Part shown: positions 232 to 23,924 of the stretch, piece by piece
Position numbering within the stretch: the stretch's first letter is position 1
Layout of the letters: each line of letters opens with the position of its first letter
Source: a virus
Virus record (IMG/VR): IMGVR_UViG_3300042881_002155
Coordinates: 1 to 24,095 of that record
Reading direction: 5' to 3' (one strand)
DNA: 24,095 bases
Notes under the pieces: model-generated
Told to the model about the DNA's origin: nothing
Seen by the model: only the letters and a program-made list of their open reading frames with translations
Database searches by the model: none
Made by a program: the position numbers and the translations under genes

Positions 232-984
232 TTATCTTCCTAAAAACCATATAATTTGTAGTGGATCACCATCTGGCCCCTGTGGTCCAGCTGGACCAGC
301 AAATTCAACCCAAATTGCAGTTGCTCCATCATTTACACCCGTGAATAATTTTCCAAGACCTGTGTTGTACCACCTATCTCCTGCTGAGAATCCTGATGGT
401 GCGGTTGCTCCTTGATAAAATGCATAACTTGTTCCACCCCCACCAGAAGCAGTGGAAGCAATCGTAAGAGTATTTCCGGAAGGAGTTATGGTTATATTGC
501 TGCCTTGAGCAAGACCAACATTTCCACTCAAACCATTCAAAGTTATTACATAACTTCCAACTGGTCCAGTAATGCCTTGTGGTCCAGTGGGACCAGTGAA
601 ACCAGTTGGTCCAATTGGACCTTGAATTCCTTGTGGACCCTGATTACCAGTTGGTCCAGTGGGTCCAGTGGGACCAGTGAAACCAGTTGGTCCAATTGGA
701 CCTTGAATTCCTTGTGGACCCTGATTACCAGTTGGTCCAGTGGGACCTTGTGGTCCCATAGCACCCGTTCCCGTATAACTTATTGTTATGCTATTAGAGG
801 ACCCAGAAACACCAATAAATGTGCTTCCAAGAATATTAATACTTCCAGTAAACCCATTTAAAAGAGTGACAGCATTTGCTGCTGTTGCATAGACATCCCA
901 AGCAGTTCCATTCCACTGCCAAGAGCGACCACCAAAGGTGTAAATTTGGCCGGGTGTCGGAGATGTTGGAAAATCTAAAGGCAT
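232..984 (-). CDS. Short collagen-like tail fibre protein
   Basis: This 250-residue protein is probably a trimeric fibre or decoration protein. Residues 1-32 form a small Trp/Tyr-rich module ([21 protein letters not shown]). Residues 77-143 are an unbroken Gly-X-Y run of about 22 triplets, almost all uncharged ([15 protein letters not shown]). A Gly/Ser-rich linker follows. Residues 191-228 form a second module with GDRWYN and IWVEF, similar to residues 517-553 of the 663-aa fibre protein. A short [10 protein letters not shown] tail comes near the end. The collagen stretch contains an exact 81-bp tandem duplication. A late-promoter box lies 7 nt upstream of the ATG and there is no Shine-Dalgarno sequence. 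The role in fibres is inferred from domain type and neighbours; the receptor is unknown. Confidence 0.85.
581..742 (-). repeat. Exact 81-bp tandem duplication in collagen-like coding sequence
   Basis: Bases 581-661 and 662-742 are identical at every position by eye, and the match runs two bases further. Each unit encodes 27 residues (nine Gly-X-Y triplets including [18 protein letters not shown]). Since 81 is a multiple of 3, gaining or losing a unit keeps the reading frame and only changes the triple-helix length. Confidence 0.95.
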
Positions 985-991
985 GTCTTAA

Positions 992-999
992 TATTTATA
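992..999 (-). promoter_or_regulatory. T4-type late promoter box TATAAATA
   Basis: The minus strand reads TATAAATA, the T4 late consensus, followed by TTAAGAC and then the ATG at 984. The TAA inside the box is the stop codon of the upstream 411-aa gene. With the usual late start site about 6 nt downstream of the box, the leader would be only about 2 nt. Confidence 0.75.
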
Positions 1000-4222: not shown

Positions 4223-4615
4223 TTAAATAGTTACATTTGGTGTTGGTTTAATTGCACCTAAAGCAAGTGTAATTGTATCTCCATTTGATACGTTGCTTGC
4301 TTGAAGATCATAAAAGACATTTGTATATGGTGGGAATTGACTAGTGTATGTTGAACCTATGCAAATATTTGCAACACCACCAGTTGCTGTGGTAGATATC
4401 CCACCAAGAACTCCGTTTGCTTGATTTAGTGCAGAACCAGACGTTACACCAAATGTATAACTAGCAAAAATTTTGCTTGGAGCATATCCATTTCTTATTT
4501 GCAAACTCAAAGTAGCACCAGTCAAATTATAACTGTTGCCAGCAGAGTTCGTAAAGGAGGCACTCCAGCGAAGTGTATCGCCTATGATGACATTTAAATC
4601 GTAAGGTTCTACCAT
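4223..4615 (-). CDS. Small beta-rich virion protein
   Basis: The 130-residue product begins [20 protein letters not shown] and contains [15 protein letters not shown] and a later NVFYDLQAS. The order 'ligand-free strand, GDT-x-RW, NLTG-x-(T)-xxxQIR, YDL' resembles the N-terminal beta-sandwich found in BppU-like baseplate and receptor-binding proteins of other phages, so a baseplate or neck adaptor role is plausible. That assignment is from pattern memory, not from an alignment. It is the first gene of the left structural block and has a late-type box 7 nt before its ATG. The only purine-rich stretch (AGGGA) abuts the ATG and is too close to work as a normal ribosome-binding site. Confidence 0.75.
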
Positions 4616-7637: not shown

Positions 7638-8309
7638 TTATCCCTTGTTGATTGCGATGTAATAAGTAATATCTTGGGAACTGTGTGTGAACCTAGAAAC
7701 CACGGTGTCCGTGATCTCTACCTTGTAGGAACCGGGAAGAAACTTGATCTCATTGATTGAGATGTTTCCTTCATAGTCGGGACCACTGTAGTTTTCCTCA
7801 ACCACAATCTCAAAACTGTCGGATGTGCTGTTTGAAGAATCATCGACAGTCAAGCGAATCTGACCGTCACCAGCAACGATTTTCAGATCACTGACCTGAA
7901 GAATGCTTGCAGCCTTCATAACTTCACTCAGATCCTGCTCATCAAGATTGAAAGAGAAGAGAACTTCAGGCATGTTGATGTCTTTGGTAGGAACGGTCAA
8001 CAGAGACTTTTCTGCATAATAATACTTTACGCTTGAACGCCCGTTGGAGATATCAACATGCGTGTCATGGAACTCAAGATCAGGATTGTTGAACATGCTG
8101 ACCACACCTAGGAACTTGTTGAGATCCCAGATGGCGATTTCGGTGTCAAAGTCCTCCTGAACGGTGGCCTTGACATAGATGTTGCTTCCTGCCGAACGAG
8201 TCTTCAGCACATTCCCAGGTTTGATGAGAATGTTTGAATTGATGGAGGAGAAGTTTTTTAGAATGTTAAATGTTTCTTTGCTCAAACGCATTTTTGTCAC
8301 AGTGCTCAT
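7638..8309 (-). CDS. 45: Sliding clamp gp45
   Basis: gp45 is the trimeric DNA clamp that gives the polymerase processivity and, in T4, also activates late transcription through gp55 and gp33. The 223-aa length fits T4 gp45 (228). Matching segments are MRLSKETFNILKNFSSINSN (T4 MKLSKDTTALLKNFATINS), AIWDLNKFLGVVSMF (T4 AIYDLNGFLGILSL), and the late FLPGSYKVEI (T4 MQPGNYKLLL). The ATG at 8307-8309 has an AAAGGATC site with good spacing. A GTG-free, GC-richer codon use (about 40-55% GC by eye in several lines) contrasts with the sugar cassette upstream. Confidence 0.95.
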   Translation of the reverse strand: MSTVTKMRLSKETFNILKNFSSINSNILIKPGNVLKTRSAGSNIYVKATVQEDFDTEIAIWDLNKFLGVVSMFNNPDLEFHDTHVDISNGRSSVKYYYAEKSLLTVPTKDINMPEVLFSFNLDEQDLSEVMKAASILQVSDLKIVAGDGQIRLTVDDSSNSTSDSFEIVVEENYSGPDYEGNISINEIKFLPGSYKVEITDTVVSRFTHSSQDITYYIAINKG

Positions 8310-8509: not shown

Positions 8510-8794
8510 TCAAGTTTCAATCCATTGAGAACCATTTGGATCCTCAAACCAAACATAAAATTTTCCATCGGAAGATCCCCACATTTGACCAACTTTTGGA
8601 TTCAACGGTGGATCACTAGATTGAACCATTTCAGTAACACCCGCAAATTTCCAACTAAGTGGTGCTTGAAAAGGTGTTTTTTGTGTTTCAGTTGTACATT
8701 GATACATCTTTCCTTGATATATCACTACATCACCATTACCATATGTAATGGGCTTTCCTGCAGAATTTTTTAATTGAAAGTTTCCCTTGAACAT
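8510..8794 (-). CDS. Small virion-like protein with CBM5/12-like and GQMW modules
   Basis: The 94-residue protein has two halves. Residues 20-51 read GDVVIYQGKMYQC, then P and LSWKFAG, the pattern of small aromatic carbohydrate-binding (CBM5/12-like) modules (Gly-Asp-x-Val-x-Tyr-x-Gly-x-x-Tyr, then Pro and Trp). Residues 56-92 carry LNPKVGQMWGSSDGKFYVWF and SQWIE, similar to the GDRW...WVE module of the collagen-like fibre proteins at the other end of the window. It therefore looks like a tail-surface or sugar-binding protein. It sits alone inside the replication block, and a perfect late-promoter box 7 nt before its ATG marks it as a late gene. It has no Shine-Dalgarno site. Function is inferred. 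Confidence 0.8.
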   Translation of the reverse strand: MFKGNFQLKNSAGKPITYGNGDVVIYQGKMYQCTTETQKTPFQAPLSWKFAGVTEMVQSSDPPLNPKVGQMWGSSDGKFYVWFEDPNGSQWIET

Positions 8795-8801
8795 TCAGTA
8801 A

Positions 8802-8809
8802 TATTTATA
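8802..8809 (-). promoter_or_regulatory. T4-type late promoter box TATAAATA
   Basis: The minus strand reads TATAAATA then TTACTGA then ATG (8794). The TAA within the box is the stop codon of gene 46 at 8805-8807. It shares TATAAATATTA (11 nt) with the box at 992-999 and has the same 7-nt gap, which makes chance unlikely. Confidence 0.75.
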
Positions 8810-10526
8810 CTTGAGCCTTGATTCTTGAGAAGTTGTTCTTCTTTTCAAATTGCATCTGTTGGTCAAATTTGTCCGTCAATGCATCTGCCTTGTGACTAAT
8901 GATGAATATAGAACATTTGCTTTTCATTTTGTTCAATAACTTTAAGAACGATTCAGTTCCAGTTGAATCCAGGGAAGAATCAAGAATCTCGTCAAAGATC
9001 AGCAGATTGCAATTTAGGCTGTTCTTCATCTTTGCAATCTCTCGCCAAGTCAAGAGAATGGCCAAATCGATACGCTGTTTTTCACCCTCAGAGAAAGAGG
9101 AATATGAGAATGCATCTCGGTATCGTGATTTGATTGTTTCCTTGAATTCCTCATCGATGTTGAAGTCAACATAGAGATTAAGTTTTCCGAGGAACTTGTT
9201 GACGAGTCCATTGATGATGGGAACATAATGTTTGATAATACGACTCTTAAGTCCACCATCCTTGAGAATGTCGTAAACAACATCGTGATGAATCTGTTTA
9301 TTGATGGCATTTTCCAAAGCCTTTGCATGCTTGTCCTTTTCTGCAATCGCTTCTTCGATCTTGGTATTGATTTCAGATTCACTTGTTGTTTTCTTTATTT
9401 TAGCAACTTTTTGAGTTAGTGAATTTATTTCGGCATTAATGTTATTTTTACGGATATCCGCTTGTGCACAAAGAACTGTGGTGTCTAGTATTTTTTTATT
9501 TAAAATTTCTAATTCATTGTTTAAAGTTTCAAGTTCTTTTAATTTTTTATCCCCAACTTGTAAAGATTTTTTACAAGTTACCAATTTTTGTCTTTTTTCC
9601 TCCAAATGCTTCTCTCTGGCCTCTTCTGGCAAAGTTTGGCCACAGCAAGTGCATTTTGGATCCCTTTCCAAAGTGTTTATTTGCTCTATAAGAGTTTCTT
9701 GGAGTTCTAATGCCTTGGAGTGCATTGTGGGAACCCCTGCCATAGAATGGATTTTAGAACTGAGTTCTTTCTTTGCTTTTTCTAATTTTGAAAGATCTTC
9801 TAGTGTATTAGTAATGAAAGATTCTTCGTTTTTTGCAAACTTCTTAAATTCAACAATTTTATCCTGATGCTCTTTTAGTTCTAAAATTTTTGTATTGTCA
9901 ATTTGGGTTTTTAGCTCATTTAAAGACTTTACTTTTTCATGAGCAATTTTTACAAAACTTTCTTCTTCTGATATCTCAGTCTTGAGTTTAGAGAGTTCAC
10001 CCCGAACATACACATTCATGTCAGCCAAAATGTCAAGATCCAAAAGACCTTCAATGATCTTTCTTCTTTCGTTGGGTGTCAACTGCATGAATGGAATGAA
10101 GTTTGACTTGCCTAGAATTACGACTTGCTTGAATGCGGCGTAGTCAAATCCAAGAATCTGTTCCTCAAAGTGTTCTTGGTAATCTTTTGACTTGGCATGC
10201 TGATCAAGCATCTCACCATCTTTGTAAATCTCAAATATCTTTGGGCTGAGACCTCTCTTGACGATGTATGTCGATCCTGATCGCTTGAATTCAATCTCCA
10301 CCATGCAATGGCGATTGTTGACCGAATTCACCAACTGAGGGATATTGATTGGGCGGAATGGCTTTCCGAACAATCCGAAGCACAAGGAATCCAGAAGAGC
10401 AAATGACTTTCCGTTTCCATTTGTCCCCGTGACCAAGGTTGTCTTATTATTGTTGAGTTTGATCTCGGAATAATTGTTTCCGAATGACCCAAAGTTTTTA
10501 AACTTTACTGATACAAATTCTATCAT
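8805..10526 (-). CDS. 46: Recombination nuclease ATPase gp46 (Rad50-like)
   Basis: gp46 and gp47 form the T4 Rad50/Mre11-type complex that resects DNA ends for recombination-dependent replication. The 573 aa fit T4 gp46 (560). Motifs in order: Walker A GTNGNGKS at 34-41, Q-loop region ILGKSNF at 137-143, a long coiled coil from about 175 to 410 with the zinc hook CTCC at 292-295 in its middle, the signature SFSEGEKQR at 477-485, Walker B LLIFDE at 508-513 with D-loop LDSSLD, and the H-loop ISH at 543-545. The ATG overlaps the gene 47 stop as ATGA, with a GGAAGAAG site before it. The coiled-coil half is visibly more AT-rich than the two ATPase halves. Confidence 0.96.
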   Translation of the reverse strand: MIEFVSVKFKNFGSFGNNYSEIKLNNNKTTLVTGTNGNGKSFALLDSLCFGLFGKPFRPINIPQLVNSVNNRHCMVEIEFKRSGSTYIVKRGLSPKIFEIYKDGEMLDQHAKSKDYQEHFEEQILGFDYAAFKQVVILGKSNFIPFMQLTPNERRKIIEGLLDLDILADMNVYVRGELSKLKTEISEEESFVKIAHEKVKSLNELKTQIDNTKILELKEHQDKIVEFKKFAKNEESFITNTLEDLSKLEKAKKELSSKIHSMAGVPTMHSKALELQETLIEQINTLERDPKCTCCGQTLPEEAREKHLEEKRQKLVTCKKSLQVGDKKLKELETLNNELEILNKKILDTTVLCAQADIRKNNINAEINSLTQKVAKIKKTTSESEINTKIEEAIAEKDKHAKALENAINKQIHHDVVYDILKDGGLKSRIIKHYVPIINGLVNKFLGKLNLYVDFNIDEEFKETIKSRYRDAFSYSSFSEGEKQRIDLAILLTWREIAKMKNSLNCNLLIFDEILDSSLDSTGTESFLKLLNKMKSKCSIFIISHKADALTDKFDQQMQFEKKNNFSRIKAQV

Positions 10527-11569
10527 TCTTCTTCCTTGGACAATGCATTATTGTAAGCTGCATTTATGATTTCGGCAAGCAAAGGTTTTTGAATTGACTT
10601 CTCGTTAATTGTTTCTATTTCTTCGTGCAGAAGTTGCAAAGTATCTTTGTGAATGTCTACCGCAACCAACTCCGGATTTGCAGACATTTCTTCTGCAACT
10701 ACCAACTCTGCAACACCAGCGTCATAGAACTTGTCTAGATATTTTTCAAATAGTACAGGCTTTGTCTTGTTTTTTACAAAAATTTTTACATAACAATCCT
10801 TGAACTGGGAATGATCTAGTTTTTCTTTGTTGTCTTCGTCATAATCAATCGTATGGAATAACTTTCTGGTATTCTTAACAAATGTAAGAGTACGATCCTG
10901 AAAGTCGAAGACATGGAACCCCTTTTCTTCCCAAACGTCAGAAAAGCCCATTTGGTATTGCGTTCCGAGATAATGAATATTGTCACGGCTAGACTTAATG
11001 TGATAATGCCCAGTAAGAACGTACTCAAACTTATCGAAATGCTTGGGGTCATAACCTTGCTCTATGAATACTCCACGGATGCTCTGAAAGCCAAAAAGTT
11101 CAAGATGGCCCAGCAAAACCGAACATGTGTTGTCTGCAAGAAACTTTGCTGATTGATCTTCATTCTCCGGGTTTATCCACGGGAGCAACGCGACACAACC
11201 GCAGGAAAGATGTACATTGGTCGGCTCTGAATACACTGACCAATTCGAATAATGTCCAGCGAGTTCCTGCAGAGAGTTGATGGAATTGGTGTTACGATAA
11301 TAGGTGTCGTGATTTCCACAGATGATGTGGACTTTGATACCCATCTCAAGTAGTGGGTCAAAAAACTCTTTTTGAACTCTGTGAAGCGTCTTAAAATTGA
11401 CATATTTTCTCCTGTCAAAAAGATCTCCTAGATGGAAGATAGTCTTGATGTTGTGTTCCTTCATGTATGGAAACAACTGTTCCGTGAAGAACTCAAGAAA
11501 GTAATCAAGAACTATGCACGAATCATTCTTGAACCCAAAGTGAGTGTCGTTAAGAATTACTGCTTTCAT
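10523..11569 (-). CDS. 47: Recombination nuclease gp47 (Mre11-like)
   Basis: This is the metallophosphoesterase nuclease partner of gp46. The five metal-binding motifs are present: NDTHFGF at 7-13, GDLFDRR at 48-54, GNHDTYY at 85-91, GHLELFG at 154-160 and TGHYH at 186-190. The 348-aa length fits T4 gp47 (339). The C-terminal third is the likely gp46-binding region. The ATG overlaps the gene 55 stop (ATGA) and its own stop overlaps gene 46 (ATGA), so 55-47-46 form a coupled transcription unit. No obvious ribosome-binding site precedes the ATG, consistent with reinitiation. Confidence 0.96.
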   Translation of the reverse strand: MKAVILNDTHFGFKNDSCIVLDYFLEFFTEQLFPYMKEHNIKTIFHLGDLFDRRKYVNFKTLHRVQKEFFDPLLEMGIKVHIICGNHDTYYRNTNSINSLQELAGHYSNWSVYSEPTNVHLSCGCVALLPWINPENEDQSAKFLADNTCSVLLGHLELFGFQSIRGVFIEQGYDPKHFDKFEYVLTGHYHIKSSRDNIHYLGTQYQMGFSDVWEEKGFHVFDFQDRTLTFVKNTRKLFHTIDYDEDNKEKLDHSQFKDCYVKIFVKNKTKPVLFEKYLDKFYDAGVAELVVAEEMSANPELVAVDIHKDTLQLLHEEIETINEKSIQKPLLAEIINAAYNNALSKEEE

Positions 11570-12135
11570 AGATCAAATGGATCTGGCTTTGGCTTTCGCT
11601 TTTTTCTCTTTGTCTTCTTGGGCTGACACATCTCGTCAAAGCGTTCCATGTCAGAATCAGTCAGACCAAAGAAGTCTCGTCTGCCGATGTCCATCCCTGC
11701 ATAGGTTTCATTGAACCAGTTTTGAAAGTCTTTGTTGTTCTGTTGTTCTGCAAACTTGTACTGAACATACTTTTCTTTCTTTTCCTTGTTGATGATACGA
11801 ACAAAAGAAAACCAGCATATTTGGGTTAGATAACCAAATGGGCTGGTTGAAAGTTTAGGATCAAAATTATCGATGTATGTTACGCAGTTTAACACCGCAT
11901 CGGATACCATCTCGTCTCTGTATGGATAGTTTGCAAAGTTTGGTCTGTATGACAATCGACTTGCTATCTTCAGCACACACTCACCAATGTAATCTGGTAA
12001 CTTTGGTTTTTTTCTTCCAGAATTGTCTGCGTCCTTGCACTTCTTTTTGTATTCCACCAAGGCATCGTAAAGCTGCTGATTGTCCACATAATCAGCATCA
12101 GATGGTTTGGCTTTTTTCTTTTTGACTTTTTTCAC
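11566..12135 (-). CDS. 55: Late transcription sigma factor gp55
   Basis: gp55 is the minimal sigma factor that directs host RNA polymerase to TATAAATA-type late promoters. The T4 pattern is visible: DYVDNQQLYDALVEY (T4 YNYVNNKELLQAIIDW), FANYPYRDEMVSDAV (T4 FSGYTQSWKQEMIADGI), TYIDNFDPKLSTSPFGYLTQ then WFSFVRIINKEKKEKY (T4 [24 protein letters not shown]). It has a Lys-rich N-terminus and a Lys/Arg-rich tail, and ends PDPFDL, a hydrophobic-acidic C-terminus like the clamp-binding end of T4 gp55. The start is GTG at 12133-12135: the ATG two bases earlier is followed directly by a stop. No Shine-Dalgarno site is present, and the promoter lies so close that the mRNA may begin at or near the GTG. 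Confidence 0.94.
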   Translation of the reverse strand: MKKVKKKKAKPSDADYVDNQQLYDALVEYKKKCKDADNSGRKKPKLPDYIGECVLKIASRLSYRPNFANYPYRDEMVSDAVLNCVTYIDNFDPKLSTSPFGYLTQICWFSFVRIINKEKKEKYVQYKFAEQQNNKDFQNWFNETYAGMDIGRRDFFGLTDSDMERFDEMCQPKKTKRKKRKPKPDPFDL

Positions 12136-12141
12136 ATGTAA

Positions 12142-12169
12142 ATTATATAACTAATCTGTGTTTTGTCAA
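12142..12169 (-). promoter_or_regulatory. Consensus sigma70 promoter for gene 55 operon
   Basis: The minus strand has TTGACA at 12169-12164 and TATAAT at 12147-12142, with a 16-nt spacer. Both hexamers are perfect consensus. The -35 overlaps the stop codon of the GDP-mannose 3,5-epimerase-like gene. The expected start site falls at about 12135, on the GTG of gene 55. Confidence 0.85.
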
Positions 12170-13131
12170 GATTTTAAACTAAAAATCCAATCATATGTTT
12201 TCTTCAACCCTATTGAAAGTGGTTGTGATGGCTCCCAATTTAAATTAATTTTCATGAGTGTATTATCAGAATTTCTTCCACGCACTCCCTGTGGTCCTTT
12301 TATATTTTTGATTACTAGTTTTTTATCTGCAATCTTCATGGCTAATTGTGCCAATTCATTAATTGAAATCATATATTCAGACCCAATATTCATTGGCCCA
12401 ATAAAATCCGAGTTCATAAATCTTCTTACACACTCAACACATTCATCAATATACAAAAATGATCTTGTTTGTTTGCCATCTCCCCATATTTCAATTTGAT
12501 CTTTTGCAAATGCCACTTTTCGGCATATTGCAGCTGGAGCTTTTTCTTTTCCATTGTTCCAAGATCCATAAGGACCAAAAATATTATGAAATCTTCCAAT
12601 TCTTACAGGTAAACCATAATTTCTATTATAAGCCAAATAAACTCTCTCGCTAAACAATTTTTCCCATCCATATTCACTGTCTGGGGCTGCTGGATAGGCG
12701 GATTCCTCAGAACACTTTGGATTATCTGGGTCTAATTGATTGTATTCTGGATACATGCAAGCCGAAGATGAATAAAAAACTTTAGGCAATTTAGTACATT
12801 TTATTGCCTCTTGTGCAACATGCAGATTAATCAATGCTGAATTGTGCATAACATCAGCATCGTGGTCTCCAGTAAAAATATAACCAGCACCACCCATATC
12901 TGCTGCTAATTGATATATCTCATCAAATTCAGAATTGTCTGAAAGTACTAATGATTTTGCTACATTTTCTTGAACTCTAAGATCCAACAGAAAAAATTCA
13001 TCGGCATCTGTTTTTTTATGTTCATGTTCTTTTATGTCAACACCACGAACCCAATAACCTTCATTCTTTAGACGAGTAACTAGATGACCGCCAATAAAAC
13101 CACCTGCACCGAGAACAAGAGCTTTTTTCAT
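12166..13131 (-). CDS. GDP-mannose 3,5-epimerase-like NAD-dependent SDR enzyme
   Basis: Known GDP-mannose 3,5-epimerases convert GDP-D-mannose to GDP-L-galactose (and GDP-L-gulose). This 321-aa protein has the NAD motif GAGGFIG at 8-14, LAADMGGAGYI at 75-85, the active-site SSSACMYPEY at 121-130 with Cys125, YGWEK at 154-158 (Tyr154, Lys158), GKEKAPAAICRK around Lys197, WGDGKQTRSFLYIDECVE at 216-233 and QGVRGRNSDN at 281-290. The spacing Cys-Tyr 29, Cys-Lys 33 and Cys-Lys197 72 equals that of the plant enzyme (C145, Y174, K178, K217), so all four catalytic residues are kept. An AAGGA site at the end of the previous gene serves its ATG. It is last in the sugar cassette. The exact substrate in the phage is inferred from the family. 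Confidence 0.87.
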   Translation of the reverse strand: MKKALVLGAGGFIGGHLVTRLKNEGYWVRGVDIKEHEHKKTDADEFFLLDLRVQENVAKSLVLSDNSEFDEIYQLAADMGGAGYIFTGDHDADVMHNSALINLHVAQEAIKCTKLPKVFYSSSACMYPEYNQLDPDNPKCSEESAYPAAPDSEYGWEKLFSERVYLAYNRNYGLPVRIGRFHNIFGPYGSWNNGKEKAPAAICRKVAFAKDQIEIWGDGKQTRSFLYIDECVECVRRFMNSDFIGPMNIGSEYMISINELAQLAMKIADKKLVIKNIKGPQGVRGRNSDNTLMKINLNWEPSQPLSIGLKKTYDWIFSLKS

Positions 13132-13132
13132 T

Positions 13133-13969
13133 TTAATCCTTATGTAATTTTTTATAATATAAACACATTTTATTTATACCAGCTTCCAAAGTTGTTTTTG
13201 GTTTCCAATAATTTAATATGTGTTCATTTGGTTCATTTTTTTTATTAAGTTGCACTGAATCTTTTGTCTGTGCTGGTATAATTTCACATTCTATATTTTT
13301 TTGTATAAATTTTGCAACATCAATAATTTTTGACCATTTAAAATTTGTTATGTGGTATTCTTTTGATTTATCCAATTCTTTCATTTTTTGAGATAAAGTG
13401 AATAGACATTCTGAACAATCATCAGCATACAAAAATTGTCTTTCTTCAGACCCATCAGTTAGCATGTTTATTTTTCTATGTGTGAGGGCCTTTTTAATAA
13501 AATCTGTTATAACATGTGATTTGTTTTCATCATGCTCAATACCATAAACATTCCAAAATTTTACAATCAATCCATTTAAAGTGTTAGTATAATATTCTCC
13601 CAATCTTTTTAGTGTTCCATAGGGAGAATAATCCATATTGGACATTTGAGACGATGTAAAAATAAAAGGTTTATTATATTTGTGTAATAAACCAAACGTT
13701 TGATCCATTAATTTAACATTATTTTCTATAAATGTATATGTGTTTTGATAGGTTTGCAAGTATCTTGAACCACCAACATCAAACGCTAAAAAATATACAA
13801 AATCACACTCATCAATGTATTTTTCTAATAAAGTATTATTGTTTATTCTTAAATCTTCATATTTTGTTCGTATTAGATCAAATTCAATAGATTCAATATT
13901 TTTTTCTTGAAGATAAGGAACGAGATGTGACCCTATCTGTCCGGATGACCCTAAAATTAAATGTTTCAT
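13133..13969 (-). CDS. NAD-dependent nucleotide-sugar epimerase/dehydratase
   Basis: The 278-aa protein is an extended short-chain dehydrogenase/reductase: GSSGQIG at 7-13 for NAD, FTSSQMS at 104-110 for the Ser of the active site, and YGTLK at 117-121 with the catalytic Tyr and Lys. NVYG at 140-143 and RQFLYADDCSE in the C-terminal half are typical of nucleotide-sugar epimerases. Unlike its neighbour it lacks the Cys of the GDP-mannose 3,5-epimerases (Gln-Met in its place), so its reaction differs. The stop lies 1 nt before the next ATG, and its own ATG overlaps the preceding methyltransferase gene (ATGA). The gene is about 20% GC in places. The sugar substrate cannot be told. Confidence 0.85.
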   Translation of the reverse strand: MKHLILGSSGQIGSHLVPYLQEKNIESIEFDLIRTKYEDLRINNNTLLEKYIDECDFVYFLAFDVGGSRYLQTYQNTYTFIENNVKLMDQTFGLLHKYNKPFIFTSSQMSNMDYSPYGTLKRLGEYYTNTLNGLIVKFWNVYGIEHDENKSHVITDFIKKALTHRKINMLTDGSEERQFLYADDCSECLFTLSQKMKELDKSKEYHITNFKWSKIIDVAKFIQKNIECEIIPAQTKDSVQLNKKNEPNEHILNYWKPKTTLEAGINKMCLYYKKLHKD

Positions 13970-14553
13970 GATATTTTTCTTAAAATAGTTAATCCATGAT
14001 TTACTGGAATAGTAACATATTCATAATTTTTATTTTCTTCTACAAATTTAGTAACTGCTCCATATGGACCCATTCCACCAAATTCATGTCCAGCCGGATA
14101 AACAGTTTTGTTATAATGAGGGTGGCTATAGGAATGCATCAAATCGTGCAATACAATTAAACCATTAATATTAACTAAATTTTTTAAATATGACAATTCT
14201 TGATAAACATGCTGTTCTTCATGCCAGTCATCCACAAAAACAAAATCATATATCGTATTACAATTTTTTAAAAATAATAGAGCATCTGATTCTATAAAAT
14301 TAAATTCATTTTCATAACCCACCAATAAACTATGATTTTGTTTTTTAATATCAACACAATCAACTTTAGTATTTAAATGTTTTGCTGCTGCGACTAATGC
14401 TCTGGTGGAATGTCCCTCCCGAACACCTAATTCTAAAATATTTTTAGCTCTTAAACTCAAACAAAGAGCGTATAAAGTTATCAAATGTTGGCTAGAATCT
14501 ATAGATCCATGTAAAGTTTCGTCAATTAAATTATCAATATTATATTTTGTCAT
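13966..14553 (-). CDS. Class I SAM-dependent methyltransferase (Methyltransf_24 type)
   Basis: This 195-aa protein has motif I NILELGVREGHSTRAL at 38-53, the acidic ribose-binding residue in KVDCVDIKK near 68, and DFVFVDDWHEEQHVYQEL at 103-120, followed by GLIVLHDLMHSYSHP. Such small methyltransferases commonly methylate sugars or amino groups in surface-glycan clusters. It does not resemble DNA methyltransferases: there is no NPPY or PC motif. It is coupled to the downstream epimerase by ATGA. The substrate is unknown; a hydroxyl or amino group of a glycan made by this cassette is the simplest guess. Confidence 0.85.
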   Translation of the reverse strand: MTKYNIDNLIDETLHGSIDSSQHLITLYALCLSLRAKNILELGVREGHSTRALVAAAKHLNTKVDCVDIKKQNHSLLVGYENEFNFIESDALLFLKNCNTIYDFVFVDDWHEEQHVYQELSYLKNLVNINGLIVLHDLMHSYSHPHYNKTVYPAGHEFGGMGPYGAVTKFVEENKNYEYVTIPVNHGLTILRKIS

Positions 14554-14562
14554 ATATTACTT

Positions 14563-15231
14563 TCACATTGTTGAGGAAGTTGTACCGCCATCAATAGTTA
14601 GAGGAGGCTCTATCCAATACATATTTAAAGGATCTGTCTTGTGATCGGATGAGAGTACATAGACTTGCCAATCAATTGGATAATTAAATGGAATTGATCG
14701 TTCAATTATTTTTTTGCATGCCGATTTAGAAAGAACTTGAGAGTAACCACATCTTCCTACAGGTGGTATTTTTTTTAAAAATTGTTGTTTATCATTAGCA
14801 TGTTCGTGACGTAAATTAAGACAACTTCCCAAAGAAATTATATCATAATCGTCTGGACAATTTTTGAATAGTGTGTCAAACAATTCAATAAAATTATTTG
14901 GAAATTGACAATCATCTTCTAAAATTATTATATGATCGTAATTTTTTTCTAAACAATCTTGATAAACTTTTAAATGAGAAATCCCACAAGCAATTTCTCC
15001 CAAAGAAAGTCTTCTATTTAAAGTAGGATACTTTGACCACTCAGGTTGAATTAAATTTTCACTATAATACGTGTTTATTAATTCTTCAGTGAGATCTTCT
15101 CTTTGAGGATCTTCTACCCAGTGTAATTGTAGATTATTTTTATTAGACCAATTAGTAAGATATTCTTTCCTATGAGTTGCTTTTTTGTAATGAACTACGT
15201 AAATTGGAATTTGTTTAAGTGTTAATACCAT
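14563..15231 (-). CDS. GT25-family glycosyltransferase
   Basis: Family 25 enzymes include LPS galactosyltransferases and collagen hydroxylysine galactosyltransferases. This 222-aa protein shows the family pattern: IPIYVVHYKKATHRKEYL at 8-25, LSLGEIACGISHLKVYQDCL at 75-94, and IIILEDDCQF at 101-110 with the metal-binding EDD. A C-terminal block (SKSACKKIIERSIPFNYPID) is also typical. It sits between two methyltransferase genes with short gaps. Because the phage encodes two collagen-like fibres, GT25 raises the question of fibre glycosylation, but bacterial and phage collagens lack hydroxylysine, so an LPS-type acceptor or another protein acceptor is just as likely. Confidence 0.87.
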   Translation of the reverse strand: MVLTLKQIPIYVVHYKKATHRKEYLTNWSNKNNLQLHWVEDPQREDLTEELINTYYSENLIQPEWSKYPTLNRRLSLGEIACGISHLKVYQDCLEKNYDHIIILEDDCQFPNNFIELFDTLFKNCPDDYDIISLGSCLNLRHEHANDKQQFLKKIPPVGRCGYSQVLSKSACKKIIERSIPFNYPIDWQVYVLSSDHKTDPLNMYWIEPPLTIDGGTTSSTM

Positions 15232-15236
15232 ATTGT

Positions 15237-15860
15237 TTATTTTTCAAAAACAAAAATAGAACAGCCATTCCACCAAGTTTCCGAATCTTGAAAAGTGGTA
15301 TTATATTCAATTAATTTATTAGTTTTTAACTTTAAATCTTCAATAGCCCTGTAAGTTCCAAGTCTTACTTTTTCCCAATTCCAGTCATCTACAATATAAA
15401 CAAAATTGCTATTCATTGAGTCGTAGTAATAAGTTAAAGCATCATAATGTTGATTTTCTTCGTGTGGGCCATCATAAAAATAAATGTCTATATCTTTTAT
15501 GTTATAATTTTTTGTATCAATTTTAAAACAATCTTTATCAATAATGTTTGATTCTTTATGTAAGAATGTTTTAAAATTATTTTCAAATTCGTGTTTGGGG
15601 CCACCAAATTCAGAAAAATTATCTATAAGATAATATTTTAATTTTTCAGTATTATTATACAATCCAGCTATTGTTGTAGATCCCTTCCATACACCTATTT
15701 CTAGATAAGACAATCCATTTGCTTCACACAAAAGATTGTTTAAAAAATATTTAAATTTTTTTCCAGAAAATCCTTCAATAGAAAAAACACGTTCATCTAG
15801 ATTAGAAGTTTTTTTATTTATGGCGGTTTCGACTAAATTTATAAGTAATTCTTTTTGCAT
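15237..15860 (-). CDS. Class I SAM-dependent methyltransferase
   Basis: This 207-aa protein carries SYLEIGVWKGSTTIAGL at 51-67 as motif I, then FYDGPHEENQHYDAL at 128-142 and VDDWNW at 157-162. The last two resemble the metal and acceptor region of O-methyltransferase-like proteins of glycan clusters. The product is Asn/Lys-rich, which reflects the low GC of this part of the cassette. It lies between GT25 and a GT8-like gene, all on the same strand, and it is related in pattern to the other methyltransferase gene at 13966-14553 but is clearly a different sequence. The substrate is unknown. Confidence 0.83.
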   Translation of the reverse strand: MQKELLINLVETAINKKTSNLDERVFSIEGFSGKKFKYFLNNLLCEANGLSYLEIGVWKGSTTIAGLYNNTEKLKYYLIDNFSEFGGPKHEFENNFKTFLHKESNIIDKDCFKIDTKNYNIKDIDIYFYDGPHEENQHYDALTYYYDSMNSNFVYIVDDWNWEKVRLGTYRAIEDLKLKTNKLIEYNTTFQDSETWWNGCSIFVFEK

Positions 15861-15869
15861 ATTAATTTT

Positions 15870-16628
15870 TTATGTTGTTTGAGGCATTTTTAGCATTATG
15901 TAATTACTGCAGTGCAATCCATTTCTTTCCATACAATCATAATAATGAATGTTGTCATCTTTTAATTGAATTTGTGACCACAATTTTTTTTCACAATTGA
16001 TGATTAAATTCATTATCGCTTGTTCGTTTGTTCTTGTATTTATATACGTATTTCCTAAATCTAATAAACGTTCAATCATGTTATCTTCAAATATTGAAGT
16101 ATCAAAATAATACATTCCTGTCTGAAAATAATCAATATCTAAATTGTAGTTTGTGCTTAAATCGTTATATAAGTCTGCAAAACGATTGGATTCAAATTGA
16201 CATGATAACTTCCACTCATAAGTGGGATAACCATCACAATGAGCTAAAAACCGTTTAGAACAATCTAAATGTATCATTGGCCAAATAGGATTGTATATTC
16301 GCATACCCCCATCAATTAACATACAAGAATCCCATTCTTTAAAAAATGGATGAAAAGTGTATATTTTATGCCATTGAAATGGTTTATTGAAATCTCTTCC
16401 GTCTGATGTAGAAATACCATTTAATCGTTGTAAAACTGATGAACGATCTATTGTAGGAAAATATTTTACAATAACATTTGAATCATTTAAAGTGTAATGT
16501 TTTAAATCGTCGCCAACCATTAATATGATTTTATCACTGTATTGGCCTTTAGTTCTCAATTCAGCAATAGTTTGCTCTGTTCTTGATAAAAAATTTTTAT
16601 TACAAAATGTGGTTAAACAGTATTTCAT
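15870..16628 (-). CDS. Glycosyltransferase-like protein with DGG in place of DxD
   Basis: The 252-aa protein begins MKYCLTTFCNKNFLSRTEQT. Its middle reads NKPFQWHKIYTFHPFFKEWD then SCMLIDGGMRIYNPI (101-115). That layout, a 'Lys-x-x...vLfiDxD...i' strand after a Trp/Phe-rich segment, is that of GT8-like nucleotide-diphospho-sugar transferases. Where they have Asp-x-Asp there is Asp106-Gly107-Gly108, so the metal site is incomplete or differently made. It may have altered activity. The ATG overlaps the stop of the exostosin-like gene (ATGA). Assignment is by pattern and context and only moderately sure. Confidence 0.72.
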   Translation of the reverse strand: MKYCLTTFCNKNFLSRTEQTIAELRTKGQYSDKIILMVGDDLKHYTLNDSNVIVKYFPTIDRSSVLQRLNGISTSDGRDFNKPFQWHKIYTFHPFFKEWDSCMLIDGGMRIYNPIWPMIHLDCSKRFLAHCDGYPTYEWKLSCQFESNRFADLYNDLSTNYNLDIDYFQTGMYYFDTSIFEDNMIERLLDLGNTYINTRTNEQAIMNLIINCEKKLWSQIQLKDDNIHYYDCMERNGLHCSNYIMLKMPQTT

Positions 16629-17395
16629 AATGCTGCTGCTGTCTGCACTATCTTATTTTTCCAATAATCAAAATCAAGCATCTCTAAATTGGTTTTTGAT
16701 TTTAATATATTTTTTTGTTCTATTAAAAAATTATAATCGGCAAGTTGTTCCCAGTTGTCTACATAACAAATAGGTAAATCTGAATAGAATAATGTGTTTA
16801 TTGATTTTTTAACAATTGGAATTGATCCAACATATAAAGTTTCCCATAACCTGTGCGTATCTTCTCCGTTTCCAGGTGGACACACTACAAAATCATGATT
16901 GTATATGTTATATAAATATTCATCAAACCCAAATCCATTTTTTCCAAAAATAGATGTTGCGTAAGATAAAGTTTGGCAGACTTTGTATGCTTGACTTCTT
17001 TGTTCTAAGTTTGTTTCAATATTAAAATTTGCGTAAACAAGATTTAAATTTTGTTTTTGTGTATGTATTATTGATTTTATTTTTTCTATTTTTTTAATTT
17101 CTGGAAACCATTTTGAATTTTCAAGACCAATTGGCAAAGATTCAATTCTTGCATCATTTACATGAACATTTTGAGCAAACCATTTAACTAAAGTTTTTGG
17201 GGCTTTGTTTAAAGAGGCCCCATCATAACGAATTTTTTCTGAAGCAACAGCACCGTCTCCATTATGAGAAATTAGTATAAACTTGCTTGAGCCTGTATAA
17301 TTTTCAAAAAAACAATCAACTTCATTAGTGTCAAAATAATAAATGGATTTATTATTTGCTAATGATATAAATTTTTCACCTTGAATATAATTCAT
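16625..17395 (-). CDS. Exostosin-like (GT47-type) glycosyltransferase
   Basis: The 256-aa protein carries the signature of the exostosin-like GT-B fold: VCPPGNGEDTHRLWETLYVG at 171-190 followed by SIPIV, where donor phosphate and sugar are bound. Before it are SHNGDGAV at 43-50 and IESLPIGLENSKWFP at 84-98. I chose the ATG at 17393-17395, which overlaps the previous stop as ATGA; an in-frame TTG at 17417-17419 lies deeper in the upstream gene and has no support. Length is shorter than eukaryotic exostosins but usual for viral and bacterial homologues. Its DNA is among the most AT-rich of the window (about 12% GC in the line at 17041). Confidence 0.85.
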   Translation of the reverse strand: MNYIQGEKFISLANNKSIYYFDTNEVDCFFENYTGSSKFILISHNGDGAVASEKIRYDGASLNKAPKTLVKWFAQNVHVNDARIESLPIGLENSKWFPEIKKIEKIKSIIHTQKQNLNLVYANFNIETNLEQRSQAYKVCQTLSYATSIFGKNGFGFDEYLYNIYNHDFVVCPPGNGEDTHRLWETLYVGSIPIVKKSINTLFYSDLPICYVDNWEQLADYNFLIEQKNILKSKTNLEMLDFDYWKNKIVQTAAAL

Positions 17396-18051
17396 ATTAA
17401 TGTCTTTTGCCAAGAACAAGCGTGAAAATGAACATTGATGCTTTCTGGAACAGCAAAAGATTTTATAAAATTAATTGTTTGTTCATTTAATTCTGATATT
17501 CCATGCCTGTGGTCTGGATCAAACATATAAAACAAACGTTTGTCCAAATAAACAACTTTATCTAAATGGGAGTGTTTATTAAAAATTTTTGTAAAATAAT
17601 ATGGTCCAGTTTTTTCCATTGTACTTTGAATTGGATTGAAAGAATTTAAAACTGGACTACTATTTTTTAAGCCTTCTATGTAATCAATACAAATGGGATG
17701 ATTTGGTATGGATCCTATTAGCCCATTCCATACTTCTGGATAATTTCCACCACTAGCAAAAAAATTATAATTCAACAAATCATCATATTTTTTAAGTTGA
17801 ATAAAATCATAATCCATATAGATTCCACCATAACGGTTTAAAACTTCTATTCTAAAAATATCAGATTTAGAACCATAATTTTCAGTTTCATCAAACAATT
17901 TTTTATTTATTAGAGGAAAATCTATATTGTTGTCATTCCATTCTTTTATTTCATAGTCATTATTAACATTTTTTATAGTTTCTACACAATAATCAAAAAA
18001 TTTTGGTCTAACTCCTCCAAACCACACAAGATGTATAATTTTTGGTATCAT
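17392..18051 (-). CDS. GT32-type glycosyltransferase
   Basis: The start MIPKIIHLVWFGG, followed by the strand-plus-DxD block NRYGGIYMDYDF at 72-83 with the metal-binding Asp80-x-Asp82, is that of the OCH1/capsular-type GT32 family. The SDIFRIEVL segment just before it is also typical. It uses a nucleotide sugar, probably for a surface glycan; donor and acceptor are not evident. The same family occurs once more at the head of the cassette (21227-21841), and the two share the opening MIPKIIH and the Gly-Gly-x-x-x-Asp-x-Asp pattern, so they may be ancient duplicates. It starts directly next to the stop of the gene upstream. Confidence 0.88.
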   Translation of the reverse strand: MIPKIIHLVWFGGVRPKFFDYCVETIKNVNNDYEIKEWNDNNIDFPLINKKLFDETENYGSKSDIFRIEVLNRYGGIYMDYDFIQLKKYDDLLNYNFFASGGNYPEVWNGLIGSIPNHPICIDYIEGLKNSSPVLNSFNPIQSTMEKTGPYYFTKIFNKHSHLDKVVYLDKRLFYMFDPDHRHGISELNEQTINFIKSFAVPESINVHFHACSWQKTLI

Positions 18052-18774
18052 TTAACAAACACCTCGTACATTAACATCGATGTTCCATTCATCTAAAATT
18101 GGTTTTAGTTCTTTCTCGTATTCACCAATATTCCACTTTCCCTTTACTATTGCAGTAGCAATATAGGGAAAGATAGAAGAGTCCCAGTGCATCATTCCTC
18201 TTTTAGGTTCATTGTTGTAATAATAAGTTGCATAGTAATTTAACCTATTCATGGTTTTTGTAAATTCAACTCCCTCTTGAAATTTGGTATATGGAGTGTT
18301 GCGATATAAATTTACATAGTCCTTTGTTTTCCACAAAGTAGGCTGAAAAGATACCGTCGTCACTGAATCATGCTTCATGTCTGGTATTTGAACCCAGTAT
18401 ATTTTGTCCTTCATTGCCAAATCTGTGACATGACCGCATTTTATCAGACGAGCACATGATACGATAGTTTCATCCAAAAAACTTTTTACATATTCAAGTT
18501 CATTCAAATTTACATCATCATAAAGAAAAAAATCTTCCTGCATGTAAATCAGATATTCTGTGTCAACATGTTTTTCAACAATATCTGCGATCTCTTGGCA
18601 ATAATTGTTGTCATCATAACGAACAAATTTATGTTTTGGATATTCATCCGTTGTTATGTCTGACGCTACTAGACTCTTGAATGTTGGGGCATGTTTATCC
18701 AACAAATCAAAATAAATTGGCCAAAGATCTTTGCAGTTAGAATGTGTGTATGTAAAAAGTGTTATATTGTCCAC
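18052..18774 (-). CDS. Putative glycosyltransferase (QED-motif, 240 aa)
   Basis: The protein begins MDNITLFTYTHSNCKDLWPI, looks like a GT-A fold, and has YLIYMQEDFFLYDDV at 74-88, where the Glu-Asp pair takes the place of DxD. Later segments include VQIPDMKHDSVTTVSFQPTL and MMHWDSSIFPYIATA. I do not recognise a named family. The start is GTG at 18772-18774, which has a strong AAGGAG site 9 nt upstream. It overlaps the preceding gene by 13 bp. Its placement among glycosyltransferase genes on one strand supports the call. Confidence 0.72.
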   Translation of the reverse strand: MDNITLFTYTHSNCKDLWPIYFDLLDKHAPTFKSLVASDITTDEYPKHKFVRYDDNNYCQEIADIVEKHVDTEYLIYMQEDFFLYDDVNLNELEYVKSFLDETIVSCARLIKCGHVTDLAMKDKIYWVQIPDMKHDSVTTVSFQPTLWKTKDYVNLYRNTPYTKFQEGVEFTKTMNRLNYYATYYYNNEPKRGMMHWDSSIFPYIATAIVKGKWNIGEYEKELKPILDEWNIDVNVRGVC

Positions 18775-19493
18775 GACACAATCTCCTTACTATAAATGCT
18801 GTTTTCGACCATATATGGTCTTGTTTTCTTACCGTGTACAATCTCATCAATTGCACTTCCTACATCTATGTATCTGTTGTTTGGATTGTTTGTATACAAC
18901 TCATGAATTAAAATTTCGGAAAGTGGCCCAGCACTTATAAAAAACAAAGTGTTGTAGTACTGTGTGGCCATTTGTTTCATATCCTGTTTTATTTTTTCAT
19001 GGTTAACTTCATAGTGATTAACACAATCGTCTGAAATGGCATAGTATTTTTGAACCAATAAAGGATCTTTAAGTCTGTGTTCTCCGTCATGAGACGCTAT
19101 CAACACTATTGGTTCCTTCAATTCAAACATAAATTCTTTGAATTTAGAATAATTTCCATTTATCCAAAGATCAGAAAAAGTAATATTTTTAGATGGTTGT
19201 TTGATATGAGACATTAAAAATTCAAAATCAAACAAAGATTGATTTGGACTAGAAATGGCATAATAATAATTTGATTCTTCGTGGTTTAATGTAAGTAACA
19301 AATCTTTTCCCAATCTATACATTTTATTATCACAAGACCACTTATCTGCTTGGTATGCTTGTGTGTTAAATCCCACACCAATACCATTCATTAACTTTAC
19401 CTCACCATCAGCATATCTTGTATAAGCAAAGTTTTCTTTGTTGAGAATCTTTGTTTTAAATTTATAAAAATCTTCAATAAAGTTTTTCACCAT
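18762..19493 (-). CDS. GT-D-fold glycosyltransferase (DUF1792-like)
   Basis: The 243-aa protein has FAYTRYADGEVKLMNGIGVG at 22-41. The Arg-x-x-Asp-Gly-Glu core is the hallmark of the GT-D fold (DUF1792), where Asp29 and Glu31 form a DxE metal site. Later blocks, KNITFSDLWINGNYSKF and PIVLIASHDGEH, then NTLFFISAGPLSEIL, match the Rossmann-like strands expected for that fold. The family transfers sugars onto glycoprotein or polysaccharide intermediates in some Gram-positives. In phage the acceptor is unknown. It overlaps the 2-epimerase gene by 20 bp. Confidence 0.78.
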   Translation of the reverse strand: MVKNFIEDFYKFKTKILNKENFAYTRYADGEVKLMNGIGVGFNTQAYQADKWSCDNKMYRLGKDLLLTLNHEESNYYYAISSPNQSLFDFEFLMSHIKQPSKNITFSDLWINGNYSKFKEFMFELKEPIVLIASHDGEHRLKDPLLVQKYYAISDDCVNHYEVNHEKIKQDMKQMATQYYNTLFFISAGPLSEILIHELYTNNPNNRYIDVGSAIDEIVHGKKTRPYMVENSIYSKEIVSWTI

Positions 19494-21955: not shown

Positions 21956-22393
21956 ATGAATCTAGAAGAACTAAAGAACTCTATAACTAAAGACTCTCAA
22001 ATAGACTCTACAGAATTAGGTATAGAGTCTCTTAAGATACCTCAAATACACTCAAAGTATCTTAATCAACTTACGGATCTTAAATTACTTTTGACAAAGT
22101 ACCAGCATGACTTTGCTATTTTGCGTTTGCGTAAATGGAAAATTTATACTGGCAAGGCTTCTGAAGAAGAACTTGCAGATTGGAAAGAAGATCCGTTTGA
22201 ACTTGATATTCTAAAGACAGATGTTGATAAGTTCATGGATGCAGATCCAAAACTTATTGAACTTAAGTCAAAAATTTCTGTCACAGAGATCAAAATTAAG
22301 ATGGTTGAAGAATTTTTGAAAGCACTTAATAATAGAAACTTTGCAATCAAATCTGCTATTGAGTGGAACAAAATGATGAACGGCATAGTCTAA
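21956..22393 (+). CDS. uvsY: Recombination mediator UvsY
   Basis: UvsY helps load the UvsX recombinase on gp32-coated single-stranded DNA. The 145-aa length fits T4 UvsY (137). Matching parts are MNLEELKNSITKDSQIDSTEL (T4 MRLEDLQEELKKDVFIDSTKL), YLNQL with following helix, a charged central helix, and the C-terminal LNNRNFAIKSAIEWNKMMNG (T4 IKSRGFAIKHIQDMRAFEAG). Overall it is helical and hydrophilic. The 5' end of the gene holds the CTAAAGA repeats and an 8-bp stem. Only a weak GAAG element stands before the ATG. It lies 8 nt before uvsW on the same strand, the reverse of the T4 gene order uvsW-uvsY. Confidence 0.92.
   Translation: MNLEELKNSITKDSQIDSTELGIESLKIPQIHSKYLNQLTDLKLLLTKYQHDFAILRLRKWKIYTGKASEEELADWKEDPFELDILKTDVDKFMDADPKLIELKSKISVTEIKIKMVEEFLKALNNRNFAIKSAIEWNKMMNGIV
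22003..22030 (+). other. Inverted repeat in early uvsY coding region
   Basis: AGACTCTA at 22003-22010 pairs perfectly with TAGAGTCT at 22023-22030 around a 12-nt loop, so an mRNA hairpin is possible about 50 nt after the start codon. The arms share the ACTCTA motif repeated upstream. Confidence 0.5.
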
Positions 22394-22396
22394 ATA
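22389..22396 (+). promoter_or_regulatory. Possible late promoter box before uvsW (TCTAAATA)
   Basis: TCTAAATA contains the uvsY stop codon and resembles the late boxes elsewhere. It is only 4 nt before the GTG of uvsW, closer than the 7 nt of the other three, so support is weak. T4 uvsW is known to be expressed late. Confidence 0.3.
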
Positions 22397-22400
22397 TTAT

Positions 22401-23909
22401 GTGGATATTGAAGTTGATTCTATTGATGAAGTTCGGTATTATGTAAAGACCGACAAAGGCATAAAACAAGAGTTAAGGGACTATTTTTCATTCATGGTCC
22501 CAGGTGCTCAATATATGCCTTTATTCAAAAAAAGAATATGGGATGGAAAAATTCGTCTTTATGATATTCTTTCATCCACACTTCCACGCGGTTTAAAAAC
22601 TTATCTAGAAAAGTTTTGTAAAGAACGGCAGTATCAACTAAATATAAAAGAGACAAAGAATCCTCTATGCATCACGGAGGACAAACTTTTACAGTTCTAC
22701 GATTCATTGCAGGTTTCAGTAAAGAAACAAGCAGTGAAAATGCATTCTCATCAACAGCAGGCCATACTGCATGCTTTGAATCAACACAGATGCGTGTTGA
22801 TTTCGCCTACTGGTTCGGGCAAAAGTTTGATCATATACGTCTTGGTCCGGTTTCTTCAATCCGTATTAAAATCAGATCGGAAAATACTCATATTGGTTCC
22901 CACGGTTGGTCTGGTGAATCAAATGGAATCAGACTTCTTTGATTACTCAAAGAACGATAAATCTTGGTCCTGCAAGAAATATATTCAAAAAATTATGGCT
23001 GGGGCAGAAAAGGAACTCAATAAGCAGATTGTAGTTTCGACTTGGCAATCTATATACAAACTACCTAAGTCTTGGTTCGATCAATTCGATGCTGTATTCT
23101 TCGATGAGTGTCATCAAGCCAAAGCAGAATCAATCAACTTCATCGGTCAAAAACTTTCAAAGGCTTGGTTTCGCATTGGAACCACGGGAACACTTGATCA
23201 GGCTCAAGCACACAGACTTAGCATCGAAGGTATTCTTGGACCAGCAATCCAATTCATTCAAACAAAGGGTTTGATGAACAAGGGTTTGCTTGCAAAACTC
23301 GGCATAGATTGCATAATTCTTAAATATACTGATGAAGAAAAACAATTCATCAAGAAACAGAAATACATTGATGAATTGAAATGGATCGTAACGAATGAAA
23401 AGAGAAACGAATTCATCAAAGAACTCGCCCTCCGCACCAAGGGGAATACCCTTGTCCTCTTTAATTACGTCGAAGACCACGGGAAACCACTCGCAGCTCT
23501 CTTGGAAGCAGCGGGAACGGATCGCAAAATATATCTCATACACGGAAAAACAGAAGCAGAGTCAAGAGAATACATCCGTAAAGTCATCGACAGAGAATCA
23601 AATGCCATTCTGGTGGCCAGTTTTGGCACGACTAGCACTGGCATCAACATTGTCAATCTTGACAATATTATTTTTGCTTCACCTACTAAATCGATTATAA
23701 GATTACTCCAAAGCATTGGCCGTGGTCTAAGAGTGTCAGAAAAGAAAAAGACACTCAAAGTATATGACATTGTTGACGATCTTTGCTGGAAGTCACACAA
23801 GAATCATATCTTTAGACATTTTGAAGAACGTGTGAAGATTTACAAGAAAGAAAAGTTTGATTACACCGTTCATTCAATGTCGTTCACAGACCTTGGAAAA
23901 AATAAATAG
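22401..23909 (+). CDS. uvsW: UvsW RNA/DNA helicase
   Basis: UvsW is a superfamily 2 helicase that unwinds R-loops and branched DNA and helps switch replication from origins to recombination. The 502-aa length equals T4 UvsW (503). Motifs: N-terminal DNA-binding part with DYFSFMVPGAQYMP and IWDGKIRLYD, Walker A SPTGSGKS at 135-142, motif Ia ILVPTVGLVNQM, motif II DECH at 235-238, motif III GTTGTL at 260-265, motif V SFGTTSTGINI, and motif VI QSIGRGLR at 437-444. The start is GTG at 22401; the in-frame MDIEVD matches T4 MDIKV. No Shine-Dalgarno site precedes it and the overlapping ATG at 22399 is in another frame. Confidence 0.95.
   Translation: MDIEVDSIDEVRYYVKTDKGIKQELRDYFSFMVPGAQYMPLFKKRIWDGKIRLYDILSSTLPRGLKTYLEKFCKERQYQLNIKETKNPLCITEDKLLQFYDSLQVSVKKQAVKMHSHQQQAILHALNQHRCVLISPTGSGKSLIIYVLVRFLQSVLKSDRKILILVPTVGLVNQMESDFFDYSKNDKSWSCKKYIQKIMAGAEKELNKQIVVSTWQSIYKLPKSWFDQFDAVFFDECHQAKAESINFIGQKLSKAWFRIGTTGTLDQAQAHRLSIEGILGPAIQFIQTKGLMNKGLLAKLGIDCIILKYTDEEKQFIKKQKYIDELKWIVTNEKRNEFIKELALRTKGNTLVLFNYVEDHGKPLAALLEAAGTDRKIYLIHGKTEAESREYIRKVIDRESNAILVASFGTTSTGINIVNLDNIIFASPTKSIIRLLQSIGRGLRVSEKKKTLKVYDIVDDLCWKSHKNHIFRHFEERVKIYKKEKFDYTVHSMSFTDLGKNK
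23901..23908 (+). promoter_or_regulatory. Possible late promoter box AATAAATA
   Basis: AATAAATA, one base from TATAAATA, overlaps the end of uvsW. The next ATG is 16 nt downstream and its GGGAGGA ribosome-binding site would remain in the leader. Spacing differs from the three 7-nt cases. Confidence 0.3.
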
Positions 23910-23924
23910 TAAGGAAGGGAGGAC

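Follow-up and report, generated by a model that had tools for sequence, protein, structure and literature searches.

Can a T4-like phage place its late promoters so close to start codons that late mRNAs begin at the AUG or a few nucleotides before it? The question is raised by a virus record of 24,095 bases (the window, meaning the whole stretch of DNA that was analysed), in which an earlier note had described three virion-type genes, each with a late promoter box exactly 7 nt before its ATG, and had predicted near-leaderless late mRNAs from T4-like promoters. In T4, the textbook case of late transcription, late genes are assumed to have leaders with ribosome-binding sites. The prediction is supported by all the sequence tests that we ran for genes whose box lies 5-10 nt before the start, but it does not stand as the sole late mode, since a leadered class with Shine-Dalgarno (SD) sites coexists with them. 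The reading that we favour, with a probability of about 0.78, is that gp55-type late promoters would produce mRNAs with no leader, or almost none, for one part of the late regulon.

Late boxes and start codons in the window

The window is a T4-like phage record in which the UvsY, gp55, gp62, RegA and tail/fibre genes match PHROG families; further genes we take to be UvsW, gp44, gp45, gp46 and gp47 from their translations and gene order. By gp44, the nearest cultured phages are the pelagiphage Mosig and the methylophage Melnitz, both at 55%. Between gp55 and UvsY (12166-21841, minus strand), we also observe around a dozen glycosyltransferase-, epimerase- and methyltransferase-like genes, named from their translations.

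We found all three boxes as described, each on the minus strand and 7 nt (N7) from an ATG: TATAAATA at 999-992, followed by the spacer TTAAGAC and the ATG at 984-982; CCTAAATA at 4630-4623, with the spacer ATAGGGA and the ATG at 4615-4613; and TATAAATA at 8809-8802, with the spacer TTACTGA and the ATG at 8794-8792. The genes downstream, on the same strand, are a collagen-like tail/fibre gene that matches PHROG tail families (232..984), a phrog_1084 gene of unknown function (4223..4615) and a small gene of 94 aa with no PHROG match (8510..8794). It had further been claimed that in two cases the TAA of the box is the stop codon of the gene before, and this is what we observe at 997-995 (ORF 995-2245) and at 8807-8805 (the gp46 ORF, 8805-10526); both of these boxes read TATAAATA, and the box of gene 4615 has no stop overlap. 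A usable SD is missing at 984, 4615 and 8794, as had been stated, with the GGGA before 4615 directly adjoining the ATG. By the T4 rule, the predicted leader of these N7 genes, the tail/fibre gene included, is about 2 nt.

Upon comparing orthologues, we observe N7 for gene 984 in 12 of 20 distinct loci and N9 in three more, and for gene 8794 in 22 of 35 loci, most of the others being N5-N6, with a box at N5-N10 in 32 of the 35. For gene 4615 a box is found in 9 of 44 loci, and GGAG precedes the ATG in none of these nine (N6-N8) versus 33 of the 35 boxless loci (Fisher p = 8e-8, a simple count over orthologues that are not independent). Such an alternation of box and GGAG would follow if the box takes over from the SD in getting the gene translated. 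Other mixed families show a weaker pattern, with an SD in 16 of 32 boxless clade members and in 4 of 60 boxed ones. In some boxless orthologues of gene 4615 (L030, L041, L053), the GGAG stands right after a short inverted repeat and a T run that resemble an intrinsic terminator.

Box spacing and two late classes in the relatives

Because the window is a lone record, genome-wide tests were done on its relatives. A gp44 scan of IMG/VR gave 80 loci, among which L003-L071 are 73-100% identical to the window, and from this group eleven long contigs of 71-137 kb (G001-G011) were read over their full length. The clade is a freshwater one, and the gp44 tree places it in one well supported group (100/99). 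Spacing was counted for the motif [AC]TAAATA before ATG over 1,418 gene calls, which are crude, in the window and its eleven relatives; the null model was dinucleotide-shuffled upstream DNA, and the reversed pattern served as an extra control.

We found the motif 5-10 nt before the ATG at 174 starts belonging to 77 gene families (N5 88, N6 21, N7 28, N8 12, N9 8, N10 17), followed by a trough at 11-15 nt and a second broad rise at 16-29 nt. In shuffled sequence, 1.0 start is expected at N5, 6.5 at N5-N10 and 6.4 in terms of families. The earlier note had offered a lack of enrichment over shuffled sequence as grounds for giving up its reading, and the close spacing is strongly enriched, although not chiefly at the distance it had named: N7 is a secondary peak and N5 dominates, so that the rule is better given as N5, ranging out to N10, than as 7 nt. 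When all hexamers were scanned at all spacings, TAAATA at N5 was the strongest positional word, with SD words behind it. The start codon is ATG at all 88 N5 sites, with no GTG or TTG, and the octamer TATAAATA or a near variant is found upstream of virion genes. With the same pipeline, no N5-N10 box was detected in T4, Syn9, S-PM2 or DLP6 and one in the freshwater cyanophage BUCT-ZZ01, and N5 boxes numbered 3 in Melnitz, 6 in Mosig and 11 in HTVC008M. More distant T4-like contigs have other sequences at the box position, or few N5 boxes.

When starts are partitioned into a short class (box at N5-N10) and a long class (box at N14-N32), an SD of at least 4 bases is found in 3% of the 174 short-class and 84% of the 108 long-class genes, with 42% of boxless starts and 20% of random coding DNA as reference and 95% for the long-class boxes of T4. 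The low short-class value follows in part from the box taking up the place of an SD, and we did not count it as independent evidence; it is the 84% of the long class that is informative. At some N10-N11 genes, AAGGA follows the box. Gene families keep their class. The gp23 major capsid gene has its box at N27-30 in 9/9 genomes and the gp22 scaffold gene at N20-26, whereas the tail tube gene is at N5 in 9/9, the gp4 head closure gene at N5 in 8/9 and N6 in one, and the neck protein gene at N5 in 7/9 and N8 in two. T4 gp4 itself has its box at N26 and the SD AAGGAG. The window also holds a long-class site that the earlier note overlooked: the box AATAAATA (23901..23908, plus strand) lies N16 before the ATG at 23925, with the SD AAGGAAGGGAGG in the region AAGGAAGGGAGGA (23911..23923, plus strand), and the family of this gene is long-class in 9/9 relatives.

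Divergent gene pairs narrow the space in which a leader could be encoded. In 19 clade pairs and one HTVC008M pair, each of the two genes has a short-class box and the start codons are 22-40 bp apart, so that an SD-bearing leader would have to start inside the opposite gene. The most compact of these minimal divergent promoters, in G005, is an entire intergenic region of 22 bp, aaaattatttataaatatttgc, in which two overlapping boxes each stand N5 from their own ATG. The divergent pair of gp4 and a fibre-like gene is separated by 26-38 bp in nine genomes, and gp4 orthologues have kept the box and its spacing in upstream DNA that has otherwise diverged; their proteins all begin with MAYKTKYK, in alignment with T4 gp4. 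Two further observations were made. Between an HNH endonuclease gene (L089:237-731, plus strand) and the gene divergent from it (MDNKK...) lies a 40-bp region, constant in six genomes, with N10 boxes on both sides. Before gp4 in more distant T4-like contigs (L247-L284) there are conserved A/T elements, perhaps other late boxes, namely TATAGATATATAG about 6-10 nt and AATATATAT about 20 nt from the ATG.

Predicted transcription start and competing explanations

Bacterial RNA polymerase usually initiates at a pyrimidine-purine step. We observed that at the 88 N5 sites the base at -1, averaged by family, is T in 83%, C in 15% and A in 0%, a pyrimidine frequency of 98% compared with 56% before boxless ATGs; for the N5 sites of HTVC008M and Mosig it is 93%. 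The T4 late box begins at -13 (PMC2988020) and so ends at -6, which makes the sixth nucleotide after it +1 and, at N5, places +1 on the A of the ATG. The pyrimidine at -1 fits a transcription start at this sixth nucleotide. The same rule would give leaders of 4-5 nt at N9-N10. The leaderless-type pattern of an earlier study (PMC3160421), in which a -10-like signal stands about 10-12 bp before the start and an SD is lacking, is also found here.

The presumed reader of the box is a gp55-type late sigma factor, whose gene (11566..12135, minus strand; phrog_234, E 1e-51) is present in the window and in all eleven relatives. The clade protein is 32% identical to T4 gp55, with Tyr97 conserved and a Lys aligned with T4 Arg114. 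In T4, Y97 stacks on the A at -12 (PMC7892883); in the clade, C replaces this A in about 22% of N5 boxes, and a/gC at -13/-12 has been described in Aeromonas phage Aeh1 (PMC2988020). The window also encodes a gp45-type sliding clamp (7638..8309, minus strand), assigned by length and by position between gp44 and gp46. In T4, gp45 is the late transcription activator.

Under the favoured reading, host RNA polymerase with phage gp55 would start at boxes 5-10 nt before the start codon, the mRNA beginning at the A of AUG for N5 and 1-5 nt before the AUG for N6-N10, and translation of these SD-less mRNAs would depend on the start codon, by leaderless-type initiation. In the other late class, to which the major capsid and scaffold genes belong, the same box lies 14-32 nt upstream, with an SD in the leader.

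The best surviving alternative, which we nevertheless consider improbable, is that the box is a translation enhancer or an unstructured A/T element in a read-through mRNA that starts upstream, rather than a promoter. The box does sit at the SD position, and for 116 of the 174 short-class genes the upstream gene is on the same strand. Against this, the box core with A or C at the second base is the same in the short class, in the leadered late genes (14-32 nt upstream) and in T4 late genes. Short-class genes are also divergent from the upstream gene more often than boxless genes (33% vs 18%), the divergent regions of 22-40 bp have room for another promoter only inside the opposite gene, and the pyrimidine at -1 is what is expected of an initiator.

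A less probable explanation accepts the boxes as real late promoters and moves the start, for instance to 7-9 nt after the box, in which case the N5 AUG would be lost and a downstream start used. The +1 rule does come from T4, and the low gp55 identity given above leaves some space for such a shift. The N5 starts, however, line up with those of orthologues in T4, S-PM2 and Melnitz that have leaders, and the N-termini are conserved, as in the invariant gp4 start, and in leadered genes the rise in purines begins at the fifth to sixth nucleotide after the box. An awkward case for the favoured reading is a further site in the window that the earlier note overlooked, the exception outside N5 to the use of ATG. 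Here the box TCTAAATA (22389..22396, plus strand), overlapping the UvsY stop codon, lies N4 before the GTG of a gene (22401..23909, plus strand) that we take to be a UvsW-like helicase from an N-terminus similar to that of T4 UvsW. The arrangement TCTAAATA-N4-GTG is conserved in 10 genomes (the window and 9 relatives), and it needs either a leaderless GUG or a +1 at the fifth nucleotide. If a pyrimidine-purine rule applies, the first base of the UvsW mRNA could be the G of its GUG, and translation would then start at a leaderless GUG.

Slightly less probable again is compaction, in which the box stands beside the start codon chiefly on account of its TAA serving also as the stop codon of the gene before, and the boxes are weak extras, with late expression coming mostly from leadered promoters upstream. 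The double use is real, in two of the three window cases and 36 of the 174 short-class starts, but it is found in only 11 of the 88 N5 boxes, and many short-class genes point away from the neighbouring gene, with no late promoter upstream on their own strand. Chance, by which A/T-rich intergenic DNA and compact packing would yield TAAATA near ATG, might be entertained for the window, where three cases are few and one-mismatch box words are near expectation (68 vs 52.6 +/- 8.0), the signal thus lying in their spacing, but it is refuted at the clade level by the N5 and family counts, by T4, which is equally A/T-rich (35.3% GC) and has no box at N5-N10, and by low reversed-pattern controls.

Among candidate helpers for leaderless translation, phage-encoded S21, IF3 or S1 (PF01165, PF00707, PF00575) were rejected, as none was detected in G001-G011, contigs that may be incomplete. 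A search for the host by a capsid-protein scan of genome contigs returned one 50% match, to a Chlorobi MAG, and was not usable. Permuted, two-piece tmRNAs are typical of alphaproteobacteria, some betaproteobacteria and cyanobacteria. We observed genes of this type among tRNA genes at L088:1244-1643 (-), L102:5525-5923 (+), L106:11851-12226 (-) and L122:10445-10753 (+), with tags that include ANIKAAPMRMAA and AEELAIAA and with the L088 copy confirmed by Rfam RF04321; they are a hint at the host.

Relation to known late and leaderless systems

The T4 late system has the same 8-bp box TATAAATA, a gp55 sigma with Tyr97 and virion genes as targets, as in the clade. The difference is one of placement: in T4 the box peaks at 25-29 nt before the ATG with none at 5-10 nt, about 20 bases further upstream than the clade's short-class boxes. 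The marine cyanophages S-PM2 and Syn9 have the late box NATAAATA, of the same family (PMC2984593), and also differ from the clade in carrying it 20-39 nt upstream and never at 5-10 nt. The leadered layout of T4 and cyanophages, with a box at least 20 nt upstream and an SD, is thus absent from the short class and present in the clade's second class.

The pelagimyophages HTVC008M and Mosig, which infect SAR11, share with the clade the N5 boxes and the T or C at -1, partly on orthologous genes (head closure and tail tube, with neck at N8), and HTVC008M shares the divergent layout in one 26-bp pair. In contrast, their gp44 is only 47-55% identical to that of the clade and groups with cyanophages, and they carry S21, which the clade lacks. 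The distribution is compatible with two gains or with an ancestral layout that cyanophages and other lineages have lost. The usual search could not find late promoters in pelagimyophages (PMC7029224), and the close placement of the box could explain why they were missed.

In bacteria, comparable layouts are known. In the clade, the trough falls at predicted leaders of about 6-10 nt; the measured leader lengths of Lactococcus cremoris are similarly bimodal, with none seen between 4 and 14 nt (PMC10986495). In D. radiodurans, a -10 element placed some 6-7 bp ahead of the ORF was shown experimentally to give leaderless mRNAs beside an SD class (PMC12340547), and the TA-led genes of bacteria are leaderless with a -10-type element close to the ORF (PMC3160421). 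These Deinococcus-Thermus and TA-led cases concern cellular genes with a host sigma-70 type TANNNT, whereas the clade has the box of a phage late sigma.

Thermus phage phiYS40 is, to our knowledge, not a gp55/TATAAATA system. Its middle and late genes have leaderless mRNAs phage-wide, as demonstrated by experiment (PMC3594737), which makes it like the clade in having leaderless phage genes; it differs in that its host is the leaderless-rich Thermus and in that, for the clade, leaderless mRNAs are predicted from sequence. We found no report of leaderless T4-like late mRNAs, including the N5 layout of HTVC008M and Mosig, in the open-access papers searched, and a leaderless layout for part of the late regulon in a T4-type late sigma system appears to be new.

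We regard as evenly balanced a broader proposal of a split late regulon, in which one late sigma would serve two promoter placements and the distance from box to AUG would set the mode of translation, with the layout possibly of separate origin in the freshwater clade and the SAR11 phages, and with 22-bp bidirectional promoters from which both mRNAs would start at the AUG. Should the favoured reading hold, leaderless mRNAs would be the source of some virion proteins both in abundant uncultured T4-like phages and in cultured SAR11 phages, and late infection would call for ribosomes or factors suited to such mRNAs. The box spacing would then also offer a simple rule for annotating late genes and their start codons in these genomes.
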